Positions 16,558-47,426 of a DNA stretch of 49,883 nucleotides are shown piece by piece. The position numbers and the translations under genes are program-made. The notes beneath the pieces are model-generated. The model did not search any database, was not told where the DNA came from, and saw only the letters and a program-made list of their open reading frames with translations. How positions within the stretch are numbered: position 1 is the stretch's first letter; the number at the start of each line of letters is the position of its first letter. The stretch is taken from NCBI GenBank assembly GCA_015065425.1, contig SVQH01000020.1:1-49883 (forward strand), read 5' to 3'. This DNA is from Oscillospiraceae bacterium (GTDB lineage: Bacteria > Bacillota > Clostridia > Oscillospirales > Acutalibacteraceae).

Positions 16558-19404
16558 TCAGTAAAAAATACTTCCGTCTGTTACATCCGACATGTGTACA
16601 TTGTCAGATGAATTTTCTGCATCAAATACCATAGTATCATTTGTTTTTGTAAAAGAATATTCGTATTTCCCGTCATTGGTTCTGAGCAACAGTGTATTAT
16701 CCTCTTCATAGTATCTTCCTGTTGCAAAATAATTGCTGTAGGGTGAAAAATTGAAAACAAACCAACCGTTTTCATATAAAGAGAAGCTTGGTTTTCTTAT
16801 TCCCTGTATGGAATCATTGAAAGTATAAGTTCTCAGATGATTACTGTCCTTGATGGTATATTCGGGATAAACAGTTGAACTCAATATAGCATCTATTGTA
16901 TATATGTGATTTACTATTTTGAGTTCGCTGTTTTTTATACTGATAAATATCAGTGTGCCGGTGCTATTTTTATCGGATACTTCAGATACAGATTTTCGTA
17001 TACCGATTCCAAGTAAGGGTTCTGTAACAGTAGACATGGTAACATATTCCACCCCGAACTCCGTTTCTGATGAATTATCATCAGCATATACTGCAATCAA
17101 CGTGTGTTCATCAAAGTAATCGTCCGAATAATAAACGGTACTGCTTATTGGTGGAGTATGTTCTGCAGGTTCCGTTATTTTATCCATTTCATCGATAAAA
17201 CTTTTAAATTCATCACCGCTTGTAATTTTTACGGTAAAAAGTGCCTGAACACTGCTTAACGCTATTCTCGGCGGTATTCCTCCAAACTCTTGAAATATTT
17301 TGTGTATTTCACTATTATGTTCTACTTTGAGTATACTGTATGTGCTGGAAATATTTTTTTCTATCGGAGCATCTTTATATTTGTCAATAAATTCAGAAAT
17401 ATTATCATTTCTCATATCGGCGTATAAGTTGCTGATTGCATTACAATGAAGAGTTATGTATAAGGGCTCAGTATATGGTTTTTCGCTGCCGATTTCTATA
17501 TAAAACAAATCATTTATCTCATATTCTTTTTTGAATATTCCAAAGGAAGTTTCAACTGATGAGTAGGCGGCAAAATCTTCCCATGACAGTGTATTCCCCT
17601 TTTCTGCAAGTTTTTTTACGTCGGATAATGTCATTTTTTTTGTTTTGAGTACACCGTCGGGACCGGAAACTCCGCCTATTTCTGAAATATCACTGCCTGC
17701 GTTACTTATATGAAATTCTGCTGAGGTTTTGTAAATTCCTCCGAATTCATCTGAAAACTCAGCGATAAGGCGGTATCTGCCTATTTTTGAAATATCAAAT
17801 TTTTGAGTTGTATATTTCATCAATTCGGTTGAATCAGCGGCAAGGATATATCCAAATGTGTTGTTAAATTCAATGTTTTCTTTTGCAACGCTTTCCCATG
17901 TGTCGCCATTTTTTATTTCAATATCGTAGCCATCTCCGTATGTCACATCTTTAGCAGTTACATTTCTCCAGAGCATAGTCAGAACATAATATCCACCGTG
18001 GTTTTTGTCTATACTTTTTATTTCTATATAAACTCCTTTATATTCTGTGTTTGCAGGAGATGTAGGAGCCGAAAGCACAGGATTTTCAGGTGTTTGAATT
18101 TTATCAAAGAGCTTTATCAGTATATGGGGATTCTCTATTTTATATGACAAGGATGCTTCTTTATTTTCATCAATATTAATATCGGAAGAGTTTTCAATCC
18201 CCATATTTATATTATCTTCAATCCATAATTTTGATATGTTTTCATCAAAAAAGACAGTTGTTTTACCGTTGATTTTAACTTTGTATAAATGTTTTCTTTC
18301 TTCTTTGTCATCGGATATAGCTTCAGGGTTGATTTTTATTCTTTTAAGCACTCTGAGCTCATCCCCGGGATCTTCTGTTGTGTATATAAAGTTTTCGGGC
18401 ATATAAAATTGCAGTTTTTCAACACCACGGAAAATATTTTCATAATTCTCAATATTGTTGATGCTGGAAGTAGTTGGGTCTGTCAGGAAAAATACAGACA
18501 GTAAAACACTTAAAATAACTGCAACGATTACCAACCAAAAAGCAGGTTTTTTATAGTTCAGTACATTCTTTATTCTCTGTTTTACCCCCGTTTCTCCGAA
18601 AGCGAGAGGACAGGCGGTGATATATTTTTTAGGTGCCGAACAGTTGATAAGTGCTTCCGAATAAGCTTTTTTTCCTGTTCCTTCCATTTCTTTTATAACT
18701 TTTTCGTCGCATGCACCTTCAATATCACGGCATAAAAGAATGTAGGACAGCCACATTACGGGATTGAACCAATGTATTGACAGAATTATAAATCCCAGAG
18801 GTTTCCACAGATGGTCATATCTTTTTATATGTGCTTTTTCATGGGCAAGAATAAAATTCTTGTCATTTTCAGAAATGAAGGAAGGAATAAGAATTTTCGG
18901 TCTTATAATTCCTAAGATAAATGGAGAATCAATACGGTCACAGATGAAAATGCTTTTTTCGGTTTCAATAGAAATACTTGTTTTTTTTCTTAGTATTATA
19001 TAGCTGATAAAGGCGTAAGTCAGCATAACGATAATTCCGATTAACCACAAAGCCGAGATGATTGGTATAATTAGCTGCAAGGGATTTGCACTTTCATCGA
19101 GCTTCGGTGCAAAGGCTTCATTTATTATCGGATTAAGTGAAGAGTTAATATAAGATATACCGCTTGAAATATGAGGCTGAGTTGAAACCATAATATCTGT
19201 AGGCACAGTTTCTGCACTGGGAACAAGACTTAACATGCTTTCAAAAGAGAACGGAAAAACAAGTCTCAGTCCTACAAGTCCCCACATAATACATGAGAGC
19301 CATTTTGGGACTTTTTTGAAAAGCATTCTTATTATAATCAAAACCAATGCAAAATAAGAGGCAGTTATACTCATATTTAATATTTTGATAAAAATATCTT
19401 CCAT
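16558..19404 (-). CDS. BlaR1/MecR1-like M56 sensor peptidase with very large ectodomain
   Basis: Membrane sensor of 948 aa. The N-terminal about 310 residues form an M56 (BlaR1/MecR1) module: several membrane helices and the zinc gluzincin motif H188-E-K-A-H192 in ILAHEKAHIKRYDH, plus CRDIEGACDEKVI with the third ligand region. A last membrane helix (about 290-310, WLVIVAVILSVLLSVFFL) leads to an extracellular region of about 640 residues in place of the usual penicillin-binding sensor domain. One part (about 440-580) looks like an immunoglobulin-like fold. No SxxK/SxN/KTG beta-lactam-binding set was noticed. Partner of the BlaI-like repressor 3 nt upstream. Ligand unknown. Confidence 0.85.
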   Translation of the reverse strand: MEDIFIKILNMSITASYFALVLIIIRMLFKKVPKWLSCIMWGLVGLRLVFPFSFESMLSLVPSAETVPTDIMVSTQPHISSGISYINSSLNPIINEAFAPKLDESANPLQLIIPIISALWLIGIIVMLTYAFISYIILRKKTSISIETEKSIFICDRIDSPFILGIIRPKILIPSFISENDKNFILAHEKAHIKRYDHLWKPLGFIILSIHWFNPVMWLSYILLCRDIEGACDEKVIKEMEGTGKKAYSEALINCSAPKKYITACPLAFGETGVKQRIKNVLNYKKPAFWLVIVAVILSVLLSVFFLTDPTTSSINNIENYENIFRGVEKLQFYMPENFIYTTEDPGDELRVLKRIKINPEAISDDKEERKHLYKVKINGKTTVFFDENISKLWIEDNINMGIENSSDINIDENKEASLSYKIENPHILIKLFDKIQTPENPVLSAPTSPANTEYKGVYIEIKSIDKNHGGYYVLTMLWRNVTAKDVTYGDGYDIEIKNGDTWESVAKENIEFNNTFGYILAADSTELMKYTTQKFDISKIGRYRLIAEFSDEFGGIYKTSAEFHISNAGSDISEIGGVSGPDGVLKTKKMTLSDVKKLAEKGNTLSWEDFAAYSSVETSFGIFKKEYEINDLFYIEIGSEKPYTEPLYITLHCNAISNLYADMRNDNISEFIDKYKDAPIEKNISSTYSILKVEHNSEIHKIFQEFGGIPPRIALSSVQALFTVKITSGDEFKSFIDEMDKITEPAEHTPPISSTVYYSDDYFDEHTLIAVYADDNSSETEFGVEYVTMSTVTEPLLGIGIRKSVSEVSDKNSTGTLIFISIKNSELKIVNHIYTIDAILSSTVYPEYTIKDSNHLRTYTFNDSIQGIRKPSFSLYENGWFVFNFSPYSNYFATGRYYEEDNTLLLRTNDGKYEYSFTKTNDTMVFDAENSSDNVHMSDVTDGSIFY

Positions 19405-32169: not shown

Positions 32170-33864
32170 ATGGCTGTTTCAAACATAGGTGTTTTCCTTG
32201 GAAAAATTGTTTTTAAGGGTTTTAATCATTTTACTTCAATTCCGATGGAAACTCAGCAGAAAACTCTTGAAGCTGTAATAAAAAGAAATAAAAACTGTGA
32301 ACTTGGTAAAAAATATGATTTTGCCAATATTCATACATTAAAGGATTTTCAGGATAAGGTTCCTCTTTCCACTTTTGAAGATTATTTGCCGCTTATCAAC
32401 CGTATGATAGATAATAATGAAGAAAACATTATTACCGGCAGTAAGGTCATCCGTTATTGTTCTTCTTCGGGTAGTGTAGGTATCCCCAAACTTCAGCCGA
32501 AGACCGCAAAAGACCTTTTCAATATGCAGTCAATGGGCTTTGCTGCAACTCCTGCCTGTGCGGCACAGTATTTCAAGGAAAAAGGAATTTTCAAAAAGCT
32601 TCCTGCACAGATGGGACCCCTGCTTCTTTCTCTTAACGGACATCCCTTAAAAAACGGTATGCGTTGCAACGGTGCGGGGCAGATTCCTTTTACTTATCTT
32701 ACTGCTCTTCTGCCTTTCTTTACCACAACACCTATAGATATTTTGTATCCTGAAGATGAAGAAAATACAGATATGTCATATTTTCAGTTGAGATTTGCAC
32801 TTACAAACCGTAAGGTTACATATCTCGGTTCAATGGTTATTACTCTGATGCTTACCATGTTTGAATACCTTGAAGCCAACTGGGAAATGATTTGTAACGA
32901 TATCGAAAAAGGGACCATTGATGCTTCCGTAAGATGTCCTGCATCCTTAAGAAATAAGTATGAAAAAAAATTAAAACCCAATCCCAAACGTGCGGCTGAA
33001 CTTCGGGCAGAATTTCAAAAAGGCTTTGATACTGATGTTCCCATTGCAAAGAGAATATGGCCCAAAGTTTGCTGGGGTTACGGTATGATAAGCTCCACTC
33101 TTTCTGTTTACGTTGAAAAACTTCACAGATATATAGGTGATATGCCAATGCACAATATGGGTTATGCCGCCTCAGAAGGCTATATGGCAATGCCCATAAC
33201 TCTTAATGCAAATGACTATGTTTTACTTCCAAGAAGTATAATTTATGAATTCTTACCCGTCGATGCTCCTGACGGAACAAGACCGCTTCTTATGGATGAA
33301 ATTGAAGTCGGCAAGGATTATGAAATTATTGTAACCAATTTTTCTGGTCTTTACAGATATCGTATTCTTGATATTGTTCATGTTACGGGTATACATAATA
33401 AGACCCCCAAGATTGAATTTCTTTACAGATCAAACATGGGGCTTAATGTTACCAATGAAAAAACAACTACACAGATGCTCGATTATGTTGCCAACTGTAT
33501 TCAAAAAGAATATGATATATCTTTCCGTGGTTACAGCTATTACGGCGATAATGATGAGGCGGGCGAGTTACCTCGTTATGTGTTCCTTTGTGATACACCT
33601 TCTGATATTCCTGTATCAAAGAAAGATGAACTTGAAGACTTTGTTGATAAGTGCTTCAGAGAATGCAACGAAAAGTATGATAAGTACAGAAGATGGGGTA
33701 TGTTACGCTCACCCTTAGTTTTGCAGCTTGAAGACGGTTCTTATGATGCTTACAAGGCTTCTCTCGTGGCACAGGGCAGGGTTCTCAATCAGATAAAACC
33801 CGTAACCGTTATCAACACACCTGAAAGAAAAGAGTTTTTCTTCTCAAAAATAAAAAATAAATAA
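32170..33864 (+). CDS. GH3 auxin-responsive-family (acyl-acid adenylating/amido synthetase-like) protein
   Basis: Adenylate-forming protein of 564 aa related to plant GH3 (Gretchen Hagen 3) acyl-acid amido synthetases, not to glycoside hydrolase family 3. Evidence: an N-terminal ETQQKTLEAVIKRNKNCELGKKYDF and FQDKVPLSTFEDYLPLI, the ATP motif RYCSSSGSVGIPKLQP, HNMGYAASEGYMAMP, and YEIIVTNFSGLYRYRILDIV with the tyrosine/arginine adenylation motif. Plant enzymes couple auxin or jasmonate to amino acids via an acyl-AMP; bacterial roles are largely uncharacterised. It is followed 58 nt later by an MFS transporter. Substrate unknown. Confidence 0.85.
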   Translation: MAVSNIGVFLGKIVFKGFNHFTSIPMETQQKTLEAVIKRNKNCELGKKYDFANIHTLKDFQDKVPLSTFEDYLPLINRMIDNNEENIITGSKVIRYCSSSGSVGIPKLQPKTAKDLFNMQSMGFAATPACAAQYFKEKGIFKKLPAQMGPLLLSLNGHPLKNGMRCNGAGQIPFTYLTALLPFFTTTPIDILYPEDEENTDMSYFQLRFALTNRKVTYLGSMVITLMLTMFEYLEANWEMICNDIEKGTIDASVRCPASLRNKYEKKLKPNPKRAAELRAEFQKGFDTDVPIAKRIWPKVCWGYGMISSTLSVYVEKLHRYIGDMPMHNMGYAASEGYMAMPITLNANDYVLLPRSIIYEFLPVDAPDGTRPLLMDEIEVGKDYEIIVTNFSGLYRYRILDIVHVTGIHNKTPKIEFLYRSNMGLNVTNEKTTTQMLDYVANCIQKEYDISFRGYSYYGDNDEAGELPRYVFLCDTPSDIPVSKKDELEDFVDKCFRECNEKYDKYRRWGMLRSPLVLQLEDGSYDAYKASLVAQGRVLNQIKPVTVINTPERKEFFFSKIKNK

Positions 33865-37366: not shown

Positions 37367-38992
37367 TTATTTAACTGATGCTATAAGCTCTTCAAAAGCT
37401 TTGGTAAGTGTTGAACCTGATTTAGTAGAAGAAGCATTGATTTCTTCATTTTCAGTAAACATTGAATGAATGTCGTTATCTGCAAGAATATAACCTATCT
37501 GGTCATTGTTGAGACCGAAGCAAAGAAGCTTGTCGATTTCAGCAGTTTCAGACATAGGAGCATAATCCCATGTTTCATGTGTCCAGCTCTTGTCTGCACC
37601 GACTACACCGCCCCATATAATTTCAGGAGCAACTTCACCGGGAATAAATACAACACCTATCTTGTTGCCGAGCTCCATATATCCTATTTCAGTGATAATC
37701 TGATAACCTAAACCATCTTTTGCAACAATAGAATTGATGAGACCTTCTCTTACAGCAAGAGTAAGAATACCGTTGTCAACTTCGATGGGTACTTCATTGA
37801 ATTTAACATTGAGTACGGGAGCGAGTTCAATTTCATTATCAATGGTCATTGTTCTCTCAGCAAGGAGTGAGCCGTATTCCTTGACTCTGTCTTTGTCTTC
37901 AAAAGATTCTGTTTCAAGAATGTCGTATTCAGTAGTAAGGGCAAGTTCTGCACCCTGAACATAAACAACATCAGCACCTGTTACTTCTTTTACATGCTCT
38001 TTGAAGTAGTAAGGGAAGTCAGCTGAAATTACATCGGTACCTGCACCGAAGCCTACGCAGTGGATACCTGCTTCGCAAAGCCAGATTTCATTTGATTCTT
38101 CGTTGTCGGGATCAAAACGGAATCTGTGAAGTTCACCGTCAAACACGATGGGTTCACGTTTATCATAGATAAATTCAGCGGCATCTACGCTGCCATAGTA
38201 AAGTGAACCTGTTTCCATATCGTTTACAGCTGTGATAACAGCATCGGAGACAACATTGTACATATTATTCATGAATTCTGTAGATTTGCCACCCACAAAT
38301 CTGCTGATATCTGCACCAACAATGCTGAGAGCGGGATTCTTGAGAAGTGCGGGAACAAGGGGGGCACCCATACCGAGTATATCAATGGCAGAGTGCTGAT
38401 GAAGAACAGAAATATTGATGCTTATAATATTCTTTTCTGCTGCAAAATCAGCAAGTTTTTCTCTGATTGCAAGGACATCGCCTCTTGCAAGTCCGTAACC
38501 GTCGATAACTGCCTGAACAGCAATACCGCTTGTTCCGTCAGAAATTGCATAAACATTTACGCCCTGATCGTCAATGATAGCTGTGGGAACTCTGCCCTCA
38601 ATGGGTTCAAGAGTACCTGCCATGTAAAAACTTCCGTTGAAGATATCAAGACCTTCAAGAAGAGAAGCATAAGCGTAACCGACGCTCCACTGAGAAGATG
38701 CTTTTACTTCAGTGTCAAATTCGTCTTCTCCGCCATAAAAGCTGTCAGGCGAATTGTAACTGTCAACAGTCGGCCATCTGTTTCCGAGATTAAGACCGGG
38801 AATAAGGAAGTTGAGAACTTTAAGCAGAGCATTTACAATCTTATCAAGTAACTGATAGAGAGTTGCCTCAATTCTCTGTGCAGGACCTTCTGAGGGGTCA
38901 ACCTTTGATGCTGCAGAAACGGGAACTGCCATTGTAAGGAGCAGTAAAGCAGCAGTAAGCACAAGTGCAATAATTCTTTTTGCTTTTTTCAT
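37367..38992 (-). CDS. Secreted neutral-ceramidase-fold protein (paralog A)
   Basis: 541 aa with a signal peptide (MKKAKRIIALVLTAALLLLT, cleavage near VSAASK) and a mature amphipathic helix at about 40-65. It shows the metal-ligand pattern of neutral/alkaline ceramidases: H198-x-H200 (SVLHQHSAID), H311 (EAGIHCVGF), E453 (IPGEVAPE) and Y501 in GLNNDQIGYILADND. The GDVSPN hexapeptide holding the nucleophile serine of characterised ceramidases is absent. So metal binding is likely but amidase activity is unproven. Last gene of the four-gene operon with GtrA, 25 nt behind paralog B; the only paralog with a signal peptide. Confidence 0.8.
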   Translation of the reverse strand: MKKAKRIIALVLTAALLLLTMAVPVSAASKVDPSEGPAQRIEATLYQLLDKIVNALLKVLNFLIPGLNLGNRWPTVDSYNSPDSFYGGEDEFDTEVKASSQWSVGYAYASLLEGLDIFNGSFYMAGTLEPIEGRVPTAIIDDQGVNVYAISDGTSGIAVQAVIDGYGLARGDVLAIREKLADFAAEKNIISINISVLHQHSAIDILGMGAPLVPALLKNPALSIVGADISRFVGGKSTEFMNNMYNVVSDAVITAVNDMETGSLYYGSVDAAEFIYDKREPIVFDGELHRFRFDPDNEESNEIWLCEAGIHCVGFGAGTDVISADFPYYFKEHVKEVTGADVVYVQGAELALTTEYDILETESFEDKDRVKEYGSLLAERTMTIDNEIELAPVLNVKFNEVPIEVDNGILTLAVREGLINSIVAKDGLGYQIITEIGYMELGNKIGVVFIPGEVAPEIIWGGVVGADKSWTHETWDYAPMSETAEIDKLLCFGLNNDQIGYILADNDIHSMFTENEEINASSTKSGSTLTKAFEELIASVK

Positions 38993-39017
38993 TGTAATTT
39001 TCCTCCGTAATTTTTTA

Positions 39018-40469
39018 TTAAACTGACTTTGCAGTATTAACCTTGTTCATTATGATTTCAAAATTCTCTGCAATAAGTGCTGCAGTATCGGGGCCCATTG
39101 AATTAGTTTCTTCGTAATGTCTTCTTCCGAATCTGTCTATTGCTCTGTCAAGATACGGAGCATCTGTATTCAGCATGAAATCATTGGGAGGAAGAACATA
39201 TCCGAGCTCGTCATTTGCAAGACCGAATATCAGAAGATTTTCATCACCTGCAATTTCAATGAGGGGATCGGGATTGATTTCAGGAGGAAGCCCTTCTGCG
39301 GATTCTTCTTCGCTGAGATAGCCGCCGTAAGCAAGCTCGGGGAACAATTCACATGGGATCATGAGAATTTTGAGATCGTCAATTTCATAGTAATTAAGTT
39401 CTGTTTTTAATGCTTTTTTGTCAGAGTAGGGAATCTTATATGCATCGGCATTAAGAAGCCCCAACTGACATGCGATTGTGAGTACAGGATTTTCAACGGG
39501 GACATAAAACTCCTGTTTAATGTGGCTTATACGGGGAGAGAGTAATTTTTCTTCGCTGATTGTCATTGCATAATCAGCTAATTTATAGCCTATATTTCTT
39601 GTGGATTCAAGAAGGCGGTTTTCTTTACGAAGTCTATCCTCATCTTCAATTTCCATGCTTATCATACCGCCGATGGCTCCGACCCCGTATATTGTTTCCG
39701 CACCTGTTTCGTTTCTGATTTTTTCTCTGAGATAACAGGGGAAATCAGCACTTACCAGAGAATTGCATCCCTGAAGCGATTCGGAATGGGAAGCAAAATT
39801 GAGAAAATAAATTTCTCTTGTTCCGTCATTGGGGACGAAACGAAGACGGGTAAGCCACTTGGAATAAACGACAGGAGTCCTGATATCCTCCTGCATATCG
39901 GGGACTTCAATTTTTCCGAGATACAGTTTTCCCTGTCTGCGGTCTCTGTAAGCGGCAGATGCGGCAGTAATAACTGCGTTGAACAGTATTGTCATAAACT
40001 TTCTGCTTTTACCTGTATGAGGCAGTTTACCCCAAATACCCATAGTATCGATACCTGCATGATTATGAGTACTCATTATGGTAATTGTTTTACAACCTGT
40101 TTTTTCCGTAAATTCGCCGAGAGCCTTTTTTAATGCGTTGACATCCTTATTCAGAAGTCCCACAATATCAAGTGAAACAAAAAGGTGTCCGCCGTTGCCG
40201 GAATTATCATCAAGCCAAAAAGCATGTGCATACTGAGGGTCAATAACTCCTTTTGCCGGATTGTTTTCGCCGTATCCCGCAATATAGTATTTTTTTGTTT
40301 TTATATCATCCGGGAGCATTACACATTTTCCGAAGCCTGCAGTAAAGTATTCCGATATTGCACTGTCCTGATAATTGAATTCACCGTCAGGCAGCATTTC
40401 GGCGAAATCTGTTCGTGCCATCCGGTTTATTCCTTTAAGTGCAGACGATGCAATCTTTGAAAAATCCAT
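39018..40469 (-). CDS. Neutral-ceramidase-fold protein (paralog B)
   Basis: 483 aa, no signal peptide. Metal-ligand pattern: H135-x-H137 in IMSTHNHAGID, H228 in NFASHSESL, E374 in IPCELFPELA (Cys in place of the usual Gly), and Y424 in GLANDELGYVLPPND. The stretch FASHSESL...NSLVSADFP matches the FAxHPxSM...N-x-L-V-x-x-D region of eukaryotic and Pseudomonas ceramidases. The nucleophile hexapeptide GDVSPN is absent. Starts 3 nt after paralog C, so translation is coupled. Without a signal peptide it should act in the cytoplasm, odd for a ceramidase. Confidence 0.78.
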   Translation of the reverse strand: MDFSKIASSALKGINRMARTDFAEMLPDGEFNYQDSAISEYFTAGFGKCVMLPDDIKTKKYYIAGYGENNPAKGVIDPQYAHAFWLDDNSGNGGHLFVSLDIVGLLNKDVNALKKALGEFTEKTGCKTITIMSTHNHAGIDTMGIWGKLPHTGKSRKFMTILFNAVITAASAAYRDRRQGKLYLGKIEVPDMQEDIRTPVVYSKWLTRLRFVPNDGTREIYFLNFASHSESLQGCNSLVSADFPCYLREKIRNETGAETIYGVGAIGGMISMEIEDEDRLRKENRLLESTRNIGYKLADYAMTISEEKLLSPRISHIKQEFYVPVENPVLTIACQLGLLNADAYKIPYSDKKALKTELNYYEIDDLKILMIPCELFPELAYGGYLSEEESAEGLPPEINPDPLIEIAGDENLLIFGLANDELGYVLPPNDFMLNTDAPYLDRAIDRFGRRHYEETNSMGPDTAALIAENFEIIMNKVNTAKSV

Positions 40470-40472
40470 TAC

Positions 40473-42164
40473 TTATACCCCCAATTCTTCTTTCAATTCG
40501 ATAAATGCCTTAATTATAGTTGAACCGGCATTGTTGCCAAGTCCTATCAGTTCATGATAATGATTTCCGAATTCGCCGAGAACATAATCATTATCGGGTA
40601 CAATGTAACCTACGGCATCGTTTGCAAGACCGAATGCGGTAAGTTCTCTTCCGAAAATTTCAGTAAGGGGAGGATAGGGGAAGTCAACGCCGTTAAATGC
40701 ACCGTCAGCCTTCAGTGAAGCTCCGCCTGTAAGAAGATCAGCACAGAATTCACCGGGTACCATTACAACGCTGAGATTTTTACCGATTTCCATAAAACCG
40801 ATCTCTGTAACAATGGAATATGTTCCGTCATTTTCTCTGATGACTTTATATGAAACAAGATTCAGTTTTCCGACTATCTGAATAAGAGGATTTGTAACTG
40901 AAATTCGTACTTCTTTGAGTCTTATGTTAAGTACAGGCTTTACAGAGGTTTCTTTTACGGGTGTCCAGTCTTTGCACCAGAGGGTGTACTCACAGTTGTT
41001 GAGTGCTGAAACTTTTGCATCGTTTTCAAATTCATCCTCATTATAAAGTAAGGGATCGGCTTTTATTTCATCTAATGATTTTGTAAGTGCAAGAGTTATT
41101 CTTCCGAGTTCTTTTCCGAAGCGGATAGAACGCTCATATCTTCTTGTAAAGTTTACCCCGTCATTTGATGCACCGCAGGACATATAAATTGCACATATTG
41201 CACCGTTGAAGAACATAAAATTATATCCTGCTTTATTTATAATTTCACCCATATAATAAATATATTCACCGCAAAGGTCTCTGCCTGAACCCTCTTTGTC
41301 TGAAGTGGGAAGTCCTGCAACATCAGGATGTGCCCCCATTGAAGCGATAATTGTAGGAGTAACACTGTTATCGTCGGGTGTGAATTTCAGACGGGTTATT
41401 TTGGTGACAAGACTCGTGGCAGATTTTCTGTTTTTGTTATTGAAATAATCAGTACCGATGTCTTTTACCGCAAGGGTCATTGTACCGGGTTTCATACTTT
41501 CATAAGCTTTCAGCATACCTTCAGCAACCTTTGTACAAAGGGTGTACATAAATTCACTGTCAGCGCCGCTGAGATATGTGCCTTTCCCTTTTTTGTTTTT
41601 CTTCTTATTATGTAAAAGAGTTGATATTGTATCTGTCCAAAGTCCTTGCGTGTCGACACAGGAGTGTGCATGAGTAGAAAACACATTAACGGAAGCAATT
41701 TTTACATCGGGATGCGTGTATTTCATCAAATCGGCAAATCTTCTTCTGATTATTCTGATGTCGGCGTTACCTGTGCCTATACAGTCTATTGTACCGAAGA
41801 ATGAAACACCGTTACCTGAATTGTCATCAAGTGCAATGATTCTGCACTGCATTTTGTCGATAACTTTCTGTATACGGTTATTGAAGCCGTTATCGGGAGT
41901 AAGATATCCTCCGAGATAATAATCTTTGTCTTCAAAGTCGTATGGGGTCAAATCAACTATTGAATATCCGAGACTCCAATGTGCATTTTTTGACGGATTT
42001 TTTCTGAATTTTTCGTTTCCTGCATAAAAATATCTGTTATCATAAAGATCAGCTGATATAAATGAGGGACCGTCATTCAGAGAATCGGCAAACTTTCCGA
42101 GACCTCCGTAAAGAATTTTTTCAGTCAATCTGACAGTTTTTTTTGATGATAAAAGATCAGACAT
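40473..42164 (-). CDS. Neutral-ceramidase-fold protein (paralog C)
   Basis: 563 aa, no signal peptide. Ligand pattern: H165-x-H167 in FSTHAHSCVDTQG, H279 in ASMGAHPDV, E472 in MVPGEFCADL, Y520 in GLANDAVGYIVPDND. There is an insert of lysines at about 186-195 (KKKNKKGKG). The C-terminus GNNAGSTIIKAF resembles the end of paralog A (SGSTLTKAF), suggesting duplication. The GDVSPN nucleophile motif is absent. The start overlaps the gtrA end by 8 nt. Not previously recognisable as a true ceramidase from sequence alone. Confidence 0.78.
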   Translation of the reverse strand: MSDLLSSKKTVRLTEKILYGGLGKFADSLNDGPSFISADLYDNRYFYAGNEKFRKNPSKNAHWSLGYSIVDLTPYDFEDKDYYLGGYLTPDNGFNNRIQKVIDKMQCRIIALDDNSGNGVSFFGTIDCIGTGNADIRIIRRRFADLMKYTHPDVKIASVNVFSTHAHSCVDTQGLWTDTISTLLHNKKKNKKGKGTYLSGADSEFMYTLCTKVAEGMLKAYESMKPGTMTLAVKDIGTDYFNNKNRKSATSLVTKITRLKFTPDDNSVTPTIIASMGAHPDVAGLPTSDKEGSGRDLCGEYIYYMGEIINKAGYNFMFFNGAICAIYMSCGASNDGVNFTRRYERSIRFGKELGRITLALTKSLDEIKADPLLYNEDEFENDAKVSALNNCEYTLWCKDWTPVKETSVKPVLNIRLKEVRISVTNPLIQIVGKLNLVSYKVIRENDGTYSIVTEIGFMEIGKNLSVVMVPGEFCADLLTGGASLKADGAFNGVDFPYPPLTEIFGRELTAFGLANDAVGYIVPDNDYVLGEFGNHYHELIGLGNNAGSTIIKAFIELKEELGV

Positions 42165-42675
42165 TTATTTTTTTCTCCTCCTTGTTCTTGTTTATAGCCG
42201 TATTTTCTTGGTTTTTATATACTACAAATTTACAGAAAAGATATTCTGTAATCATATTGCAAATCATTGTGATTGCAAGAACTATGTAATCAATACCGAC
42301 AACGGAAGCAAATTTATTGGTAAAAAAGATTCCGAGAAGAGTTGATACAGGAGTAAAAACAAGATAGAAGCCAAAAACCTTAAGCATGGCAACAGGTATG
42401 TTCGCTGCTGATTTGAAAGTGAATTTACGGTTGAATGTAAAATTCCATAAAACCGAGAGAACGAGTGCTATCAGATAACACAGACCGTATTCGCTGGTCA
42501 ATATTTTCCCAAATGTCTCATTGTTTTCAATAAGTGTCTGCATAAAGTCCGTCTTAAGAAGGGCTTCATTCATCAAAGTAAAACTTCCTATCTGGATAAT
42601 TCCTGCAGATGTTGAAAATAGAGCAAATTTAATAAATTGAAAAATATTCTTTTTTGAATCTGTAACTTCCGACAA
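42157..42675 (-). CDS. GtrA-family membrane protein
   Basis: 172 aa with four hydrophobic helices, including FIKFALFSTSAGIIQIGSF, GLCYLIALVLSVLWNFTFNRKFTF (NFxxNRxFTF is the family signature) and YLVFTPVSTLLGIFF. GtrA-like proteins are thought to help move polyprenyl-linked sugars across the membrane for glycolipid or O-antigen glucosylation. Start codon is TTG at 42675 with AGAGG about 8 nt upstream; no ATG is available. First gene of the operon with three ceramidase-fold proteins. Confidence 0.88.
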   Translation of the reverse strand: MSEVTDSKKNIFQFIKFALFSTSAGIIQIGSFTLMNEALLKTDFMQTLIENNETFGKILTSEYGLCYLIALVLSVLWNFTFNRKFTFKSAANIPVAMLKVFGFYLVFTPVSTLLGIFFTNKFASVVGIDYIVLAITMICNMITEYLFCKFVVYKNQENTAINKNKEEKKINV

Positions 42676-42799: not shown

Positions 42800-44389
42800 A
42801 TGAATGATATTCCTCTTTTTGTGGGAAAAAACTGTGATGCTTTTAAGAAATTTTATGAGGATGACAAACAGTTCGCAGGGATGAAGGATGGGCGAATTCC
42901 TTCTCTTATTACAATTAAAAACGGTGAATATAAAGGCAGAGTTATTGCTGCAGCTGATAAAGCTTCCTGTGGTGCTGACTGGGGCTATATTGAAATTGCG
43001 GTCAGACTCAGCAGTGATGACGGGAAGTCTTTCAGCGATATGAAAACAATATTTACGCCTCCTGTCAGAAAATATCCTTTTGACGGAGAAGAATATACCT
43101 CTGCTTTTGCAATAGACCCTCTGATGATGGAATCTGAAGAAGGAAAATTGATTATGCTCATGGATTTCTATCCCGAATGTAAAGGACTTCATGCTCCGAA
43201 ATATCTTGAAAAGGGAAACGGATACGTAAAGTGCGGAAATGAATACAGGCTCAAACTTTATTCAGGCAAAACCAGACTTGACGGTCTTTTTGTAAGAAGG
43301 GGAAAGGAGTTTACTTTACATTCTGACGGCTTTGTATATGACGCTGATAATGTAAAAACAAGGTATTATATTCCGCATAAACATTCATCTGAATATAATT
43401 ATTCTACTTTTGGTGATATGTATTATTGCGTTGGTGAAAAACCGCAGTATATTGACAGCGAACCGCCTCTTATACCTGAATATTCAGAAGATAAAGATAT
43501 TTATGTCGGTAATATATATGTAAGCAAAGGGAAAAAGGTTCTTTCTGATGGTATCCCGCAATTTGTTGAAAAGAAAAAAGTATATGATGATAACGGAAAT
43601 TTTCTTTGTGTTGAAACCTTACCTGCTCCTTTCAGGGCACCTATGCTGTCATATATATTTATGATGGAAAGCTCAGACGGCGGAGAGACATTCACACAAC
43701 CTGTTGATATTACCCCCTATTATAAAAAGGATTCAGACGGGATTTTTGTCGGTGTAGGACCGGGCATCGGTATTACTCTTAAATCAGAAAAATATATAGG
43801 CAGAATTCTTGCACCTTGCTATAAACTTAATTCTGCACTTGTACTTATCAGTGATGACGAAGGAAAAACATGGAGAAGAAACTCAGGACAGTTCTGTGAA
43901 AATATTGATGAGTGTCAGCTGGTGGAAATGCCGGACGGAAAAGTTTTTTGTTTTGGCAGACCCAAGGGCGGCGGAAACATTCCTCTCAGTGTTTCGGATG
44001 ACGGCGGGGATACCTTCAGAAAGCTTCCTCCGGTTCCGCCGAAAGTACCGCAGTGTCAGCGTTCTGTGATTAGTGTTCCACCTGAAATGCCACTGCCGGA
44101 CGGATTAACTAATGACGGTCGTTATATACTTTTAGCGGCTCCGACAGGTCATTCAGGGAAGGATTCAACGAGAACCGACGGCAAAGTTTTTCTCGGCAGA
44201 ATAGACGGAGAGAAAGTCTCATGGGTAAAGGAATATCAGATTACCGACAAGAATAAATATGCATCTTTTGAAAAGTATGCGGATTTTTATGCATATTCAT
44301 GTCTTAGCATACTTGATGATATGACAATAGGTTTACTTTACGAAGCATATCCGTCGGGGTATATGACTTTTGCAAAATTTGAACTCTGA
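42800..44389 (+). CDS. GH33-like exo-alpha-sialidase
   Basis: Six-bladed propeller protein of 529 aa. The sialidase RIP motif is at R32-I33-P34 (KDGRIPSLITI) and four Asp-boxes are visible: SSDDGKSF (71-78), SSDGGETF (291-298), SDDEGKTW (351-358) and SDDGGDTF (399-406). A region of about 180 residues between the first and second Asp-box (including CGNEYRLKLYSG and LDGLFVRRG) may be an inserted domain, as in many bacterial sialidases. No signal peptide, so an intracellular enzyme or one acting on imported sialyl-oligosaccharides. Convergent with a second propeller protein. Confidence 0.85.
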   Translation: MNDIPLFVGKNCDAFKKFYEDDKQFAGMKDGRIPSLITIKNGEYKGRVIAAADKASCGADWGYIEIAVRLSSDDGKSFSDMKTIFTPPVRKYPFDGEEYTSAFAIDPLMMESEEGKLIMLMDFYPECKGLHAPKYLEKGNGYVKCGNEYRLKLYSGKTRLDGLFVRRGKEFTLHSDGFVYDADNVKTRYYIPHKHSSEYNYSTFGDMYYCVGEKPQYIDSEPPLIPEYSEDKDIYVGNIYVSKGKKVLSDGIPQFVEKKKVYDDNGNFLCVETLPAPFRAPMLSYIFMMESSDGGETFTQPVDITPYYKKDSDGIFVGVGPGIGITLKSEKYIGRILAPCYKLNSALVLISDDEGKTWRRNSGQFCENIDECQLVEMPDGKVFCFGRPKGGGNIPLSVSDDGGDTFRKLPPVPPKVPQCQRSVISVPPEMPLPDGLTNDGRYILLAAPTGHSGKDSTRTDGKVFLGRIDGEKVSWVKEYQITDKNKYASFEKYADFYAYSCLSILDDMTIGLLYEAYPSGYMTFAKFEL

Positions 44390-44442: not shown

Positions 44443-45417
44443 TTATTCTTCAAGTTCAATTTTCCAGAAGACGATCTGCTTTCTTTTGTATGTATAAGTT
44501 ATGTAAAGTGTGTTATTCTTACAGGTAATTGCAGGATATGAAAATTCACCGTTGCCGGGTTCGGGAATTAAAACTTCAGTGAAATGTTTGCCGTTATCCC
44601 TTGAGTACGCAAGGGATAACGGATGTCTTATGCCCCAGTTAATATCGACGGGATTATAGATTAACCATAATCTGCCGCTGTCATCTTTCACGCAGTCAAT
44701 TCCCGAATTATTGTTCGGAAGACGTGTTCTGTAGGGTTTGCACCATGTTTCACCATTATCTTTTGAATCACTTCTGTAAATTGCTCCTTTGTTTGAACGC
44801 AGCAGACAGTGTACGAGACCTTTTTCCGATTCCCATAAAGTCGGTTGGATAAGTCCCACATAAGCTCCTTTGTACTTGGGTCTTTCCATATAAGAATTGA
44901 AATGCCAAGTAAGTCCGTCATCATCGGAAATATCTATAAACGGAATCCATTTTTTCTTTTGTTCGGTTGATGCAGGTGCGAGAAGTCTTCCGTCGGAAAG
45001 TCTCAGACATTTATTTTTGACAGGACCTCTGCCGCCTGAAAAATCGCCGGGTACAAGTATTTCGGGTGCCGTCCAACTGTTTCCTCCATCGTAAGATATC
45101 ATGTATTTTGTTATCCATCCCGGAATTGTATCGCCGTGTTTATAGTACAGTATTATTGAACCGTCACTACGTTCATGCAGAACAGGATTCCAATGAGCTG
45201 TTGCGTCAGGCTCACTTACAGACACCGGTGTGCTCCATTCACCTTCTGTGCTTCTTTTTGATATCCAGATTTTAACGCTTTTGTCACCTTCTCTTGCACC
45301 GCCGAACCAAGCGGACAGAACTGTTCCGTCATCTAAAGGAAGAACAGTTGATGCATGGCAGCTGGGTGCTTTATCATTTTTTTTGAATATGAATTCTTTT
45401 TCAGCTTTTTTTATCAT
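44443..45417 (-). CDS. BNR/Asp-box sialidase-fold protein
   Basis: 324-aa single-domain propeller. Asp-box-like repeats SYDGGNSW, SDDDGLTW, SKDNGETW and SRDNGKHF are visible, along with ASTVLPLDDGTVLSAWFGGAREGDKSV, which is typical of BNR_2-type proteins rather than classical GH33. No RIP motif was seen near the N-terminus, so the substrate may not be sialic acid (related proteins act on rhamnose or uronic acid glycans). Cytoplasmic; GGAGG upstream of ATG 45417. Confidence 0.78.
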   Translation of the reverse strand: MIKKAEKEFIFKKNDKAPSCHASTVLPLDDGTVLSAWFGGAREGDKSVKIWISKRSTEGEWSTPVSVSEPDATAHWNPVLHERSDGSIILYYKHGDTIPGWITKYMISYDGGNSWTAPEILVPGDFSGGRGPVKNKCLRLSDGRLLAPASTEQKKKWIPFIDISDDDGLTWHFNSYMERPKYKGAYVGLIQPTLWESEKGLVHCLLRSNKGAIYRSDSKDNGETWCKPYRTRLPNNNSGIDCVKDDSGRLWLIYNPVDINWGIRHPLSLAYSRDNGKHFTEVLIPEPGNGEFSYPAITCKNNTLYITYTYKRKQIVFWKIELEE

Positions 45418-45593: not shown

Positions 45594-47426
45594 ATGAAAA
45601 AAGTATTTTTAAAAGCTTTGGCATCTGTTCTTGCTGTTGCTGTTATGTTTTCTTCCGTAGCTGTTCTCTCAGTGGCGGCTGCTGACGGAAATTGCGATTG
45701 TGAACATTGTCCATCCATTGTTATCCCCGGTATATTTCAGTCAAGAGTAAGATATCTTGATGAAAACGGTAATGAAATGCTTAATGAAGACGGTGAACCT
45801 TATTCTGCTCCGTTCTTTATGAAATCAACCGGTGATATCGTAAAAAAGGCTCTTGAAGAAGCCCTTATTCCTCTTGCTGGACTGCTTCTTACTCAGACTG
45901 ATATTGACAGCCGATGTGCAAATGCAGTTGCTGAAGTCTTAGGTGACGCACTTCTCAGTAATATTGCACTTGATGAAAACGGCAGAGTTATCAAAAATAT
46001 TAAGGCTGATAAATATGACACAAGCCTTGCCAATCTTTCAGCAGCTGACAGAAATTATGCTCTTGGTCAGATTCCGCTTCAGAAATATGTTGAAATAGCC
46101 GGTCTTGATCATCTCTATTTTTTCTCCTATCATTCCACCGGTAATATGATTGATACCGTAAACGAACTTTATGATCTTATTCAGATAGCTAAAAAAGAAA
46201 CGGGTCATGATAAAGTCAATCTTGTTCCTATAAGCCAGGGCGGATCTGTTGAAAATGCTCTTATGCAGCTTTATATAGATAAGGGACTTGAGTTTTCTGA
46301 TGACGTTAACAGAGTTTGCTATGTTGTTCCCGCTGCTGACGGTGCTGCTGTTCTCGGTGATATATATCATTACGGACTTCTTGATGATGATGAGGCTCTT
46401 TACGGATATATGTTCCCGTCTCTTCTTGATGAAGATCAGGAATACCTTGCTTATCTGATAAATCTTATTCTCAGAATTCTTCCCAATGCTGATGTTAATA
46501 ACATTATTGATACGGCTGTTCAGGTCCTTGTCGAGGATTATCTTGAGTATTCCACACTTCTCTGGGCACTTATTCCTTCTAAAGATTATCCTGACTGCAG
46601 ACAGATGTATCTTTCCGAACCCGAAGATGCAAAAGTCCGTGAACAGACAGACTGGTATTACAACGCTCAGGTGAATGCAAAAGAATATATTCTTGATGCA
46701 AAAGAAAAAGGTGTTGAATTTTTTGATATTGTAGATTATAATTATACAATGTATCAGATCTGTGATTCGTGGAATAAAGTAAATTCTGACGGTATCATTC
46801 ATACAGATTCCGAATCCTTCGGTGCAACAAGCATCGGTGTCGATGTTTCTCTTCCCGATGATTATGTTCAGGCTAATACATATTGTACAGATCCTTCTCA
46901 TAATCATATTGATGAAGGCAGACTTGTCGATGCTTCAACAGGTATTTTGTGTGAAACAACCTTCTACTTCAAAGGACAGGACCATGAAAAGACAGCTCGT
47001 AACGATGTTGTTATGCGTCTTGCCATAAGAATTCTTACTGATGAAACATTTGTTGATGTTTATTCCGATCCTGCTTATCCTCAGTTTAATTTTGCCCGTG
47101 ATTCAAGAGGAGCCATCAATGATTATAATTATTGGAAAAATTTTGATGTTTCTTCGCTGAGTGAGGAGGATGCTGCTGAATTCAATTCTGCTCTTAAAGC
47201 ATTGGGAGATGCCATTGAAAGCACATATATGCCTACCGAAGACTTTATAGCCGCAAAAAACAGATTTGAGGATATCACTTATAAAATAGTCAACGGAACC
47301 GAGAGGGTAGAAGAGAAACCAAGTTTCTTCATGAATCTTCTGTCTAAACTTTTCAAATTGATGAGTGATCTTATGCTTACTCTTTTTGGTGGTAAAGGTT
47401 TTTCCGACATAATTTTATTCAGGTGA
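45594..47426 (+). CDS. Secreted lipase-like alpha/beta hydrolase
   Basis: 610-aa protein with a signal peptide (MKKVFLKALASVLAVAVMFS, cleavage near SVAAADG). It opens with CDCEHCPSIVIPGIFQS, an oxyanion-loop type found in lipases/LCAT-like acyltransferases. The nucleophile elbow is VPISQGGS (S214). A late motif RLVDASTGILCETTFYFKGQDHEK provides the likely catalytic histidine. The last about 40 residues (FFMNLLSKLFKLMSDLMLTLFGG) form an amphipathic helix that may bind the membrane. Likely acts on lipid or ester substrates outside the cell. Family recognition is by motif, not by a named homologue. Confidence 0.78.
   Translation: MKKVFLKALASVLAVAVMFSSVAVLSVAAADGNCDCEHCPSIVIPGIFQSRVRYLDENGNEMLNEDGEPYSAPFFMKSTGDIVKKALEEALIPLAGLLLTQTDIDSRCANAVAEVLGDALLSNIALDENGRVIKNIKADKYDTSLANLSAADRNYALGQIPLQKYVEIAGLDHLYFFSYHSTGNMIDTVNELYDLIQIAKKETGHDKVNLVPISQGGSVENALMQLYIDKGLEFSDDVNRVCYVVPAADGAAVLGDIYHYGLLDDDEALYGYMFPSLLDEDQEYLAYLINLILRILPNADVNNIIDTAVQVLVEDYLEYSTLLWALIPSKDYPDCRQMYLSEPEDAKVREQTDWYYNAQVNAKEYILDAKEKGVEFFDIVDYNYTMYQICDSWNKVNSDGIIHTDSESFGATSIGVDVSLPDDYVQANTYCTDPSHNHIDEGRLVDASTGILCETTFYFKGQDHEKTARNDVVMRLAIRILTDETFVDVYSDPAYPQFNFARDSRGAINDYNYWKNFDVSSLSEEDAAEFNSALKALGDAIESTYMPTEDFIAAKNRFEDITYKIVNGTERVEEKPSFFMNLLSKLFKLMSDLMLTLFGGKGFSDIILFR

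Follow-up and report, generated by a model that had tools for sequence, protein, structure and literature searches.

Predicted zinc hydrolases of the neutral-ceramidase superfamily without the GDVSPN serine in uncultured Oscillospiraceae

What is encoded by three tandem genes that carry the metal-binding pattern of neutral ceramidases and lack their hallmark motif? The genes, here called P1, P2 and P3, lie together with gtrA at positions 37367–42675, on the minus strand, of a 49,883-nucleotide stretch (the window) of contig SVQH01000020.1 in assembly GCA_015065425.1, from an uncultured Oscillospiraceae bacterium of the gut. An earlier note on this DNA had proposed that they form a new lineage acting on a membrane glycolipid or N-acyl lipid. 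The observation behind that note was right, and the finding is larger than the three-gene operon. The type of enzyme is likely and the substrate uncertain, and the targets of P1–P3 may be sugars rather than ceramides.

The order of the genes in the direction of transcription is gtrA, P3, P2, P1, all on the minus strand. The first gene (42157–42675, TTG start) encodes a GtrA/DPMS-type transmembrane protein, a family match to PF04138 at an E-value (E) of 5.7e-8 and 33.4 bits against a cut-off of 26.1. P3 (40473–42164, 563 aa), P2 (39018–40469, 483 aa) and P1 (37367–38992, 541 aa) were found by pairwise BLASTP to be true paralogs, with 25–29 % identity and E of 6e-43, 7e-47 and 8e-32. Among this genome and G006, G013, G017 and G019, the nonsynonymous rate (dN) was 0.07–0.18 for all four genes, with a synonymous rate (dS) of 0.8–2.9 or saturated. 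All four are thus under purifying selection among five species and are not chance open reading frames, and dN so far below dS likewise speaks against pseudogenes. PHROGs gave no match for any of the four proteins; NCBIfam gave none for P1, P3 and GtrA, and for P2 one weak match far below the cut-off.

Visual inspection and a simple hydrophobicity rule both gave P1 a signal-peptide-like N-terminus, and no signal peptide was found in P2 or P3, so the earlier division into one exported and two unexported paralogs was recovered as a prediction. The gtrA and P3 genes overlap by 8 nucleotides (nt), P3 and P2 are separated by 3 nt, and the 25 nt between P2 and P1 contain a separate GGAGG resembling a ribosome-binding site. 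Translational coupling, which had been assumed throughout the operon, is therefore plausible at the first two junctions and weaker at the last.

All of the motifs on which the ceramidase assignment had been founded (HxH, a further His, P(G/C)E and GLxND-x2-GY-x4-ND) were located in each of the three proteins. The predicted zinc ligands are H198, H200, H311, E453 and Y501 in P1; H135, H137, H228, E374 and Y424 in P2; and H165, H167, H279, E472 and Y520 in P3. The histidines were placed by alignment to the human enzyme and the Glu and Tyr by family alignments. In the profile alignment, human His194, His196, His303 and Arg257 correspond to H135, H137, H228 and R197 of P2, where the human numbering assumes that His196 is the second His of the HxH motif. 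The Arg257 equivalent is R279 in P1 by alignment and R246 in P3 by inspection only, the MAFFT alignment being one column off. The five ligands were invariant in 90/90 rows of alignment A3 and in 70/70 rows of A4 (overlapping sets), and in a third set they were present in 107 of 108 rows, the single exception lacking the third His. The arginine was aligned in 80/90 rows, and in six further rows, which belong to the P3 clade, an NR motif stands one column away.

The GDVSPN hexapeptide was missing from P1, P2 and P3, as had been claimed, and from every relative in two overlapping sets (0/108 and 0/126). Its Ser position is aligned with Thr in P1, Ile in P2 and Tyr in P3, and among the 108 relatives with Ile (35), Thr (24), Tyr (23), Ala (10), Ser (9), Asp (4) or Val (3). 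The Asp of the GD dipeptide is aligned with Ala in P1, Gly in P2 and Ala in P3, and mostly with Gly or Ala family-wide. We take Ser354 of human neutral ceramidase to be the serine of GDVSPN. In a review, Ser354 is placed at the base of the pocket, where it stabilizes Arg257, and His196, Arg257, Tyr579 and Tyr591 are named as critical residues (PMC6952831). If the serine merely positions the arginine, as that review has it, its loss need not end catalysis. To speak of GDVSPN as the nucleophile motif, as had been done for this locus, follows an older view and overstates its weight. A zinc-water mechanism would then be the natural reading for P1–P3, and the three proteins are very probably active zinc hydrolases of the neutral-ceramidase superfamily.

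Membership of the superfamily was assessed by profile and by structure. P2 matched the Pfam family Ceramidase_alk (PF04734) at E 1.4e-9, with 37.6 bits against a cut-off of 32.1, and Pfam gave no PF04734 match for P1 or P3. Similarly, phmmer searches of the PDB matched P2 to human neutral ceramidase at 0.0012, found nothing for P1 and gave a single match at chance level for P3. When a profile was built from relatives of P2, it matched only two PDB entries at E ≤ 0.01, the human (4wgk, 1.1e-8) and Pseudomonas (2zws, 3.9e-5) neutral ceramidases. When the clades were compared by hhalign with a profile built from 14 short clostridial PF04734 proteins, the probabilities were 99.4 % for the P1 clade, 99.6 % for P3 and 100 % for P2, and P1 and P3 are thereby predicted to belong to the superfamily. 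The AlphaFold (AF2) model of P2 had a predicted local distance difference test (pLDDT) score of 94.5 and a predicted TM-score (pTM) of 0.93, and that of P3 had 91.6 and 0.93. In a Foldseek search of the PDB with the P2 model, 4 of the 788 matches reached E ≤ 0.001; all were neutral-ceramidase chains, with query TM-scores (TMq) of 0.64–0.67, the best being 2zws (E 4.0e-23, TMq 0.65). As modelled, P2 has the neutral-ceramidase fold. The earlier assignment to this fold is supported, for P2 by model and for P1 and P3 by profile. The profile matches of the clades, their common clade and the Foldseek result speak against three unrelated folds, and the missing GDVSPN and the replaced GD against ordinary ceramidases.

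The three genes are part of a much larger set, for whose members, P1, P2 and P3 included, CER is used here as shorthand. The expanded family was split from 18 short PF04734 outgroup rows at 100/100 support, which bears out the claim of a new lineage. It divides into subfamilies, and P1, P2 and P3 each sit in a different one, so the tandem triple is not the product of a recent local duplication. This genome has 11 family matches, and 36 of the 79 genomes searched (this one included) have at least one. All 25 congeners have matches (2–11 each, median 6), as do 7/22 genomes of other genera of the same bacterial family, one of which holds 17, and 3/31 genomes from elsewhere in the order, where one of the three matches only weakly. 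A class-wide draw gave matches in 42/291 genomes; the strong ones came from this genome and two genomes of one further family, and the weaker ones from 39 genomes (best E 1.3e-15), one of them in this genome's own family. The 80 named loci are from uncultured Clostridia or Oscillospiraceae and similar metagenome-assembled genomes, and in 42 of them the record title mentions a herbivore as host (goat, sheep, deer, horse, yak or buffalo). Two side observations concern this spread: G038 has 17 family matches in a single genome of ~2.0 Mb, and a lipoprotein-like version of the family occurs in another family of the class (L205 and L206, loci L232 and L233), with a 153–157 aa membrane protein ahead of it.

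The neighbourhoods of CER genes were used to consider possible substrates. Recurrent neighbours, named from one representative each by Pfam/NCBIfam, include MurQ, NamZ, a GH84 beta-N-acetylglucosaminidase, a BadF-type kinase nearest NagK, SIS proteins, GNAT, KdsB and BNR proteins; the best-enriched annotated ones family-wide are GNAT and amino-sugar genes. A salvage gene, defined as any of MurQ, GH84, BadF, NamZ or SIS within four genes of CER, was present in 19/80 named loci and in 15 of the 45 loci with at least four genes on each side. The counts over the 80 loci were 11 for MurQ, 16 each for GH84 and BadF, 8 for NamZ and 7 for SIS. Six of the 80 loci are arranged as BadF-MurQ-GNAT-GH84-CER-CER-NamZ, where GNAT and NamZ are encoded on the opposite strand, and shorter versions occur elsewhere. 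This genome has a single MurQ match, 4.4 kb away from a CER pair (contig C35, 27454–30276) and with GH84 in between; an amidase function would be predicted most sharply for this pair. G005 and G023 have pairs resembling P2/P1 close to BadF and SIS. Three of 18 loci of the short PF04734 outgroup had a BadF/SIS (two near-copies) or BNR neighbour. A quickly built tree with 122 rows required at least eight changes (gains or losses) in the presence of a nearby salvage gene, so the linkage is not one inherited block.

Tandem CER copies were present in 37/80 named loci. Among 33 adjacent same-strand full-length pairs, 14 were unexported then exported, 14 had an N-terminal hydrophobic segment on both members and five on neither; by the simple hydrophobicity rule, the order exported then unexported was found in 0/33. 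Two further associations of such pairs were seen. A gene for a KdsB (CMP-Kdo synthetase-like) protein lies beside CER pairs, together with a 403–409 aa protein, at L168, L170, L173–L175, L179, L186 and L058; to our knowledge, Kdo is not expected in Clostridia. Directly behind pairs resembling P2/P1 there is a family of 448–454 aa membrane proteins (L053:7321-8667 and L056:6745-8109), of which the L053 member has no Pfam match.

Our preferred, still tentative reading is that P1–P3 are serine-less zinc amidohydrolases of the neutral-ceramidase superfamily acting on amino-sugar glycoconjugates, at their N-acyl or peptide amides. Their lineage has multiplied in gut Clostridia (Oscillospiraceae). 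A single zinc, held by HxH, the third His, Glu and Tyr, would activate water for cleavage of an amide (or ester) bond, aided by the Arg257-equivalent arginine, and the GDVSPN serine would be dispensable because its sole role would be to position that arginine. The N-acyl or peptide amides would come from glycoconjugates salvaged by the cell, with P1 acting outside and P2 and P3 inside, and GtrA would be a co-transcribed membrane protein of unproven role. An amino-sugar substrate taken by itself has a probability well under a half.

Several findings weigh against this reading. No salvage gene lay within four genes in 61/80 named loci or in 30/45 loci with full context, and many single P2-type genes stand among genes that look, by eye, like housekeeping genes. 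The neighbour classes were picked after the loci had been seen, so the Fisher values are biased upward; even so, the enrichment of NamZ among near versus far neighbours was weak (p 0.04, post hoc), and there was no significant enrichment of KdsB (0.066), GtrA (0.094), GH3 (0.11), short BNR (0.44) or long BNR proteins (0.17). In the sampled genus, among the matches listed, one of nine MurQ genes is near CER, only in this genome, and 0/7 NamZ genes are beside CER; this genome gave no NamZ match. The window operon itself is not adjoined by MurQ, NamZ, GH84 or BadF, its neighbours being sialidase-like and lipase-like. Finally, the arginine was unaligned in 10/90 rows, four of which (L151, L168, L170 and L174) have no nearby NR motif; L168, L170 and L174 are among the KdsB-linked loci.

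A more specific proposal, that the ceramidase fold was recruited as a new class of peptidoglycan/amino-sugar amidase, is doubtful. In it, the tandem enzymes would take the amidase/N-deacylase step in clusters for salvage of N-acetylmuramic acid (MurNAc) and N-acetylglucosamine (GlcNAc), a step held elsewhere by AmiE/AmpD-type enzymes, and the 2–11 paralogs per genome would serve different N-acyl glycans, sialylated ones in the case of the window operon. Pairs would consist of a non-exported then an exported enzyme or would have a membrane segment on both. Pfam found no Amidase_2 (PF01510) in P1–P3, and the one Amidase_2 match of this genome is on contig C14, away from the salvage-linked CER pair.

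The main rival is a ceramide or ganglioside substrate, because a sialidase-like gene flanks gtrA and the neighbours fit a ganglioside too. P1–P3 would genuinely deacylate lipids, namely glycosphingolipids of the host or of microbes, the sialidase stripping sialic acid, the lipase-like protein and P1 attacking the lipid outside, and P2 and P3 finishing inside. Neutral ceramidase has the same fold and active site, a GH33-like sialidase divergently adjoins gtrA in this genome and four others, an exported lipase-like protein recurs nearby, and the herbivore hosts named in just over half of the locus titles would be a source of gangliosides. However, P2, P3 and the long sialidase show no signal peptide, GDVSPN is absent from all 108 relatives, and the neighbours enriched family-wide are amino-sugar genes. 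We hold this reading to be improbable. The membrane glycolipid or N-acyl lipid of the earlier note remains a candidate substrate, but the best-enriched annotated neighbours are GNAT and amino-sugar genes. Hydrolysis of N-acyl amino acids or of similar N-acyl signals, in which GtrA would have no part, would share the chemistry of ceramide hydrolysis, and 3.5 kb beyond P1 there is a GH3 gene (PF03321) for an acyl-amido synthetase-like protein; but this gene was seen in a single genome, no gene of such metabolism was recognized in the recurrent neighbour clusters, mostly read by eye, and we regard it as quite unlikely.

Loss of activity has a slightly smaller, low probability. P1–P3 would then be inactive scaffolds or metal-binding proteins in which catalysis was lost along with the serine motif, including its Asp, and GDVSPN is termed crucial for activity in PMC5874051. 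Against this, the Ser position varies but the zinc ligands are conserved without change from one subfamily to the next, and the review cited above (PMC6952831) gives the serine the part of a support for Arg257. An assembly of P1–P3 with GtrA that edits a polyprenyl-linked glycolipid would fit the 8-nt overlap and 3-nt gap and the adjacency of gtrA to a CER gene in seven genomes, but pairs occur without gtrA in congeners such as G004 and G023, and homologs of gtrA at 61–64 % identity are present in G046 and G049, which have no CER match. This is the least probable of the alternatives considered.

The same comparisons define the place of gtrA. It adjoins CER genes in 7/26 genus genomes (this one, G002, G006, G010, G013, G017 and G019), six of which hold all three CER genes; in G010 it is ahead of a P3-type gene, with a P1-type gene nearby on the other strand. 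Homologs of gtrA are widespread (30/79 genomes at E ≤ 1e-20), and the near homologs in CER-less genomes mean that GtrA is not a fixed partner; together with the 7/26 linkage they rule out an obligate one. The gtrA triple is present in six genus genomes, this one included, as a local arrangement within the larger family. A gtrA homolog of 53 % identity at L140:12052-12438 is differently arranged, two genes away from a solitary gene of the P2 type.

Upstream of the operon, a GH33-like sialidase gene is divergent from gtrA (42800–44389, plus strand; phmmer 1.4e-28 to sialidase A 3h71, BNR_2 1.8e-12). Its product has no evident signal peptide at the sequence start, and it occupies the same place in G006, G013, G017 and G019. 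It is followed by a second sialidase-like neighbour, a BNR_2 protein (44443–45417, minus strand; BNR_2 1.1e-68, phmmer 5.4e-9 to neuraminidase C), and by an exported alpha/beta-hydrolase-like (lipase-like) protein (45594–47426, plus strand), recognized by eye from features such as IVIPGIFQS and PISQGGS and without a Pfam match. Homologs of the latter are near gtrA-linked members in G002, G006, G010 and G013, and one homolog had a weak LCAT match below the cut-off (E 0.0087). These sialidase-like and lipase-like neighbours would suit a sialylated glycan as target and equally a ganglioside. A search for sialic-acid lyase gave four matches in this genome, none over the cut-off, and 14/14 control genomes gave matches too. 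Beyond P1 lies the gene for the GH3-family acyl acid-amido synthetase-like protein (32170–33864, plus strand; E 1.6e-67), then a major facilitator superfamily (MFS) transporter; the PF03321 GH3 family is best known from plant auxin conjugation. A 948 aa BlaR1-type M56 peptidase with a Big_14 domain is encoded at 16558–19404 on the minus strand.

Bacterial members of the PF04734 superfamily are often labelled ceramidases as a matter of course. Caution about this practice is advised by a large separate clade in which the zinc ligands are retained and the hallmark motif is lost, and which is partly found in sugar-salvage clusters. The family offers natural variants in which the role of the motif serine can be tested, and it may hold an unrecognized amidase step in gut cell-wall or glycan salvage. 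In the literature collection searched, no paper describing a link between the ceramidase fold and peptidoglycan/amino-sugar salvage or sialidase was found by title or start of abstract, long result lists being judged from their top entries. SrfJ is presumably a protein of another family. PMC9430895 concerns SrfJ, and PMC9436119 deals with alkaline ceramidase, a different zinc enzyme.

Among known systems, neutral ceramidase (P. aeruginosa 2zws/2zxc, human ASAH2 4wgk; PF04734) resembles P2 in its fold, its HxH/His/Glu/Tyr zinc ligands and its Arg257-equivalent arginine. P1–P3 differ in lacking GDVSPN, in their length (483–563 aa against 630–672 residues in the solved chains) and in belonging to a family of many copies with partly sugar-linked neighbourhoods, and P2 has 14–16 % identity over the fold. 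The short clostridial Ceramidase_alk proteins (~430–500 aa, the 18 outgroup rows) belong to the same superfamily and have HxH, Arg, His, Glu and Tyr. Unlike the P1–P3 family, they keep G followed by Asp (10/14) or Asn (4/14) at the motif, and they form the separate clade described above. The GtrA protein of the window is over the cut-off for the GtrA/DPMS family, yet its gene adjoins ceramidase-fold genes. The MurNAc salvage set of Bacillus subtilis comprises AmiE, NagZ, NamZ, MurP and MurQ. Some clusters of the present family are similar in holding MurQ, NamZ, a BadF-type kinase and a GlcNAc hydrolase, but differ from it in having two ceramidase-fold genes in the cluster and GH84 in the place of NagZ.

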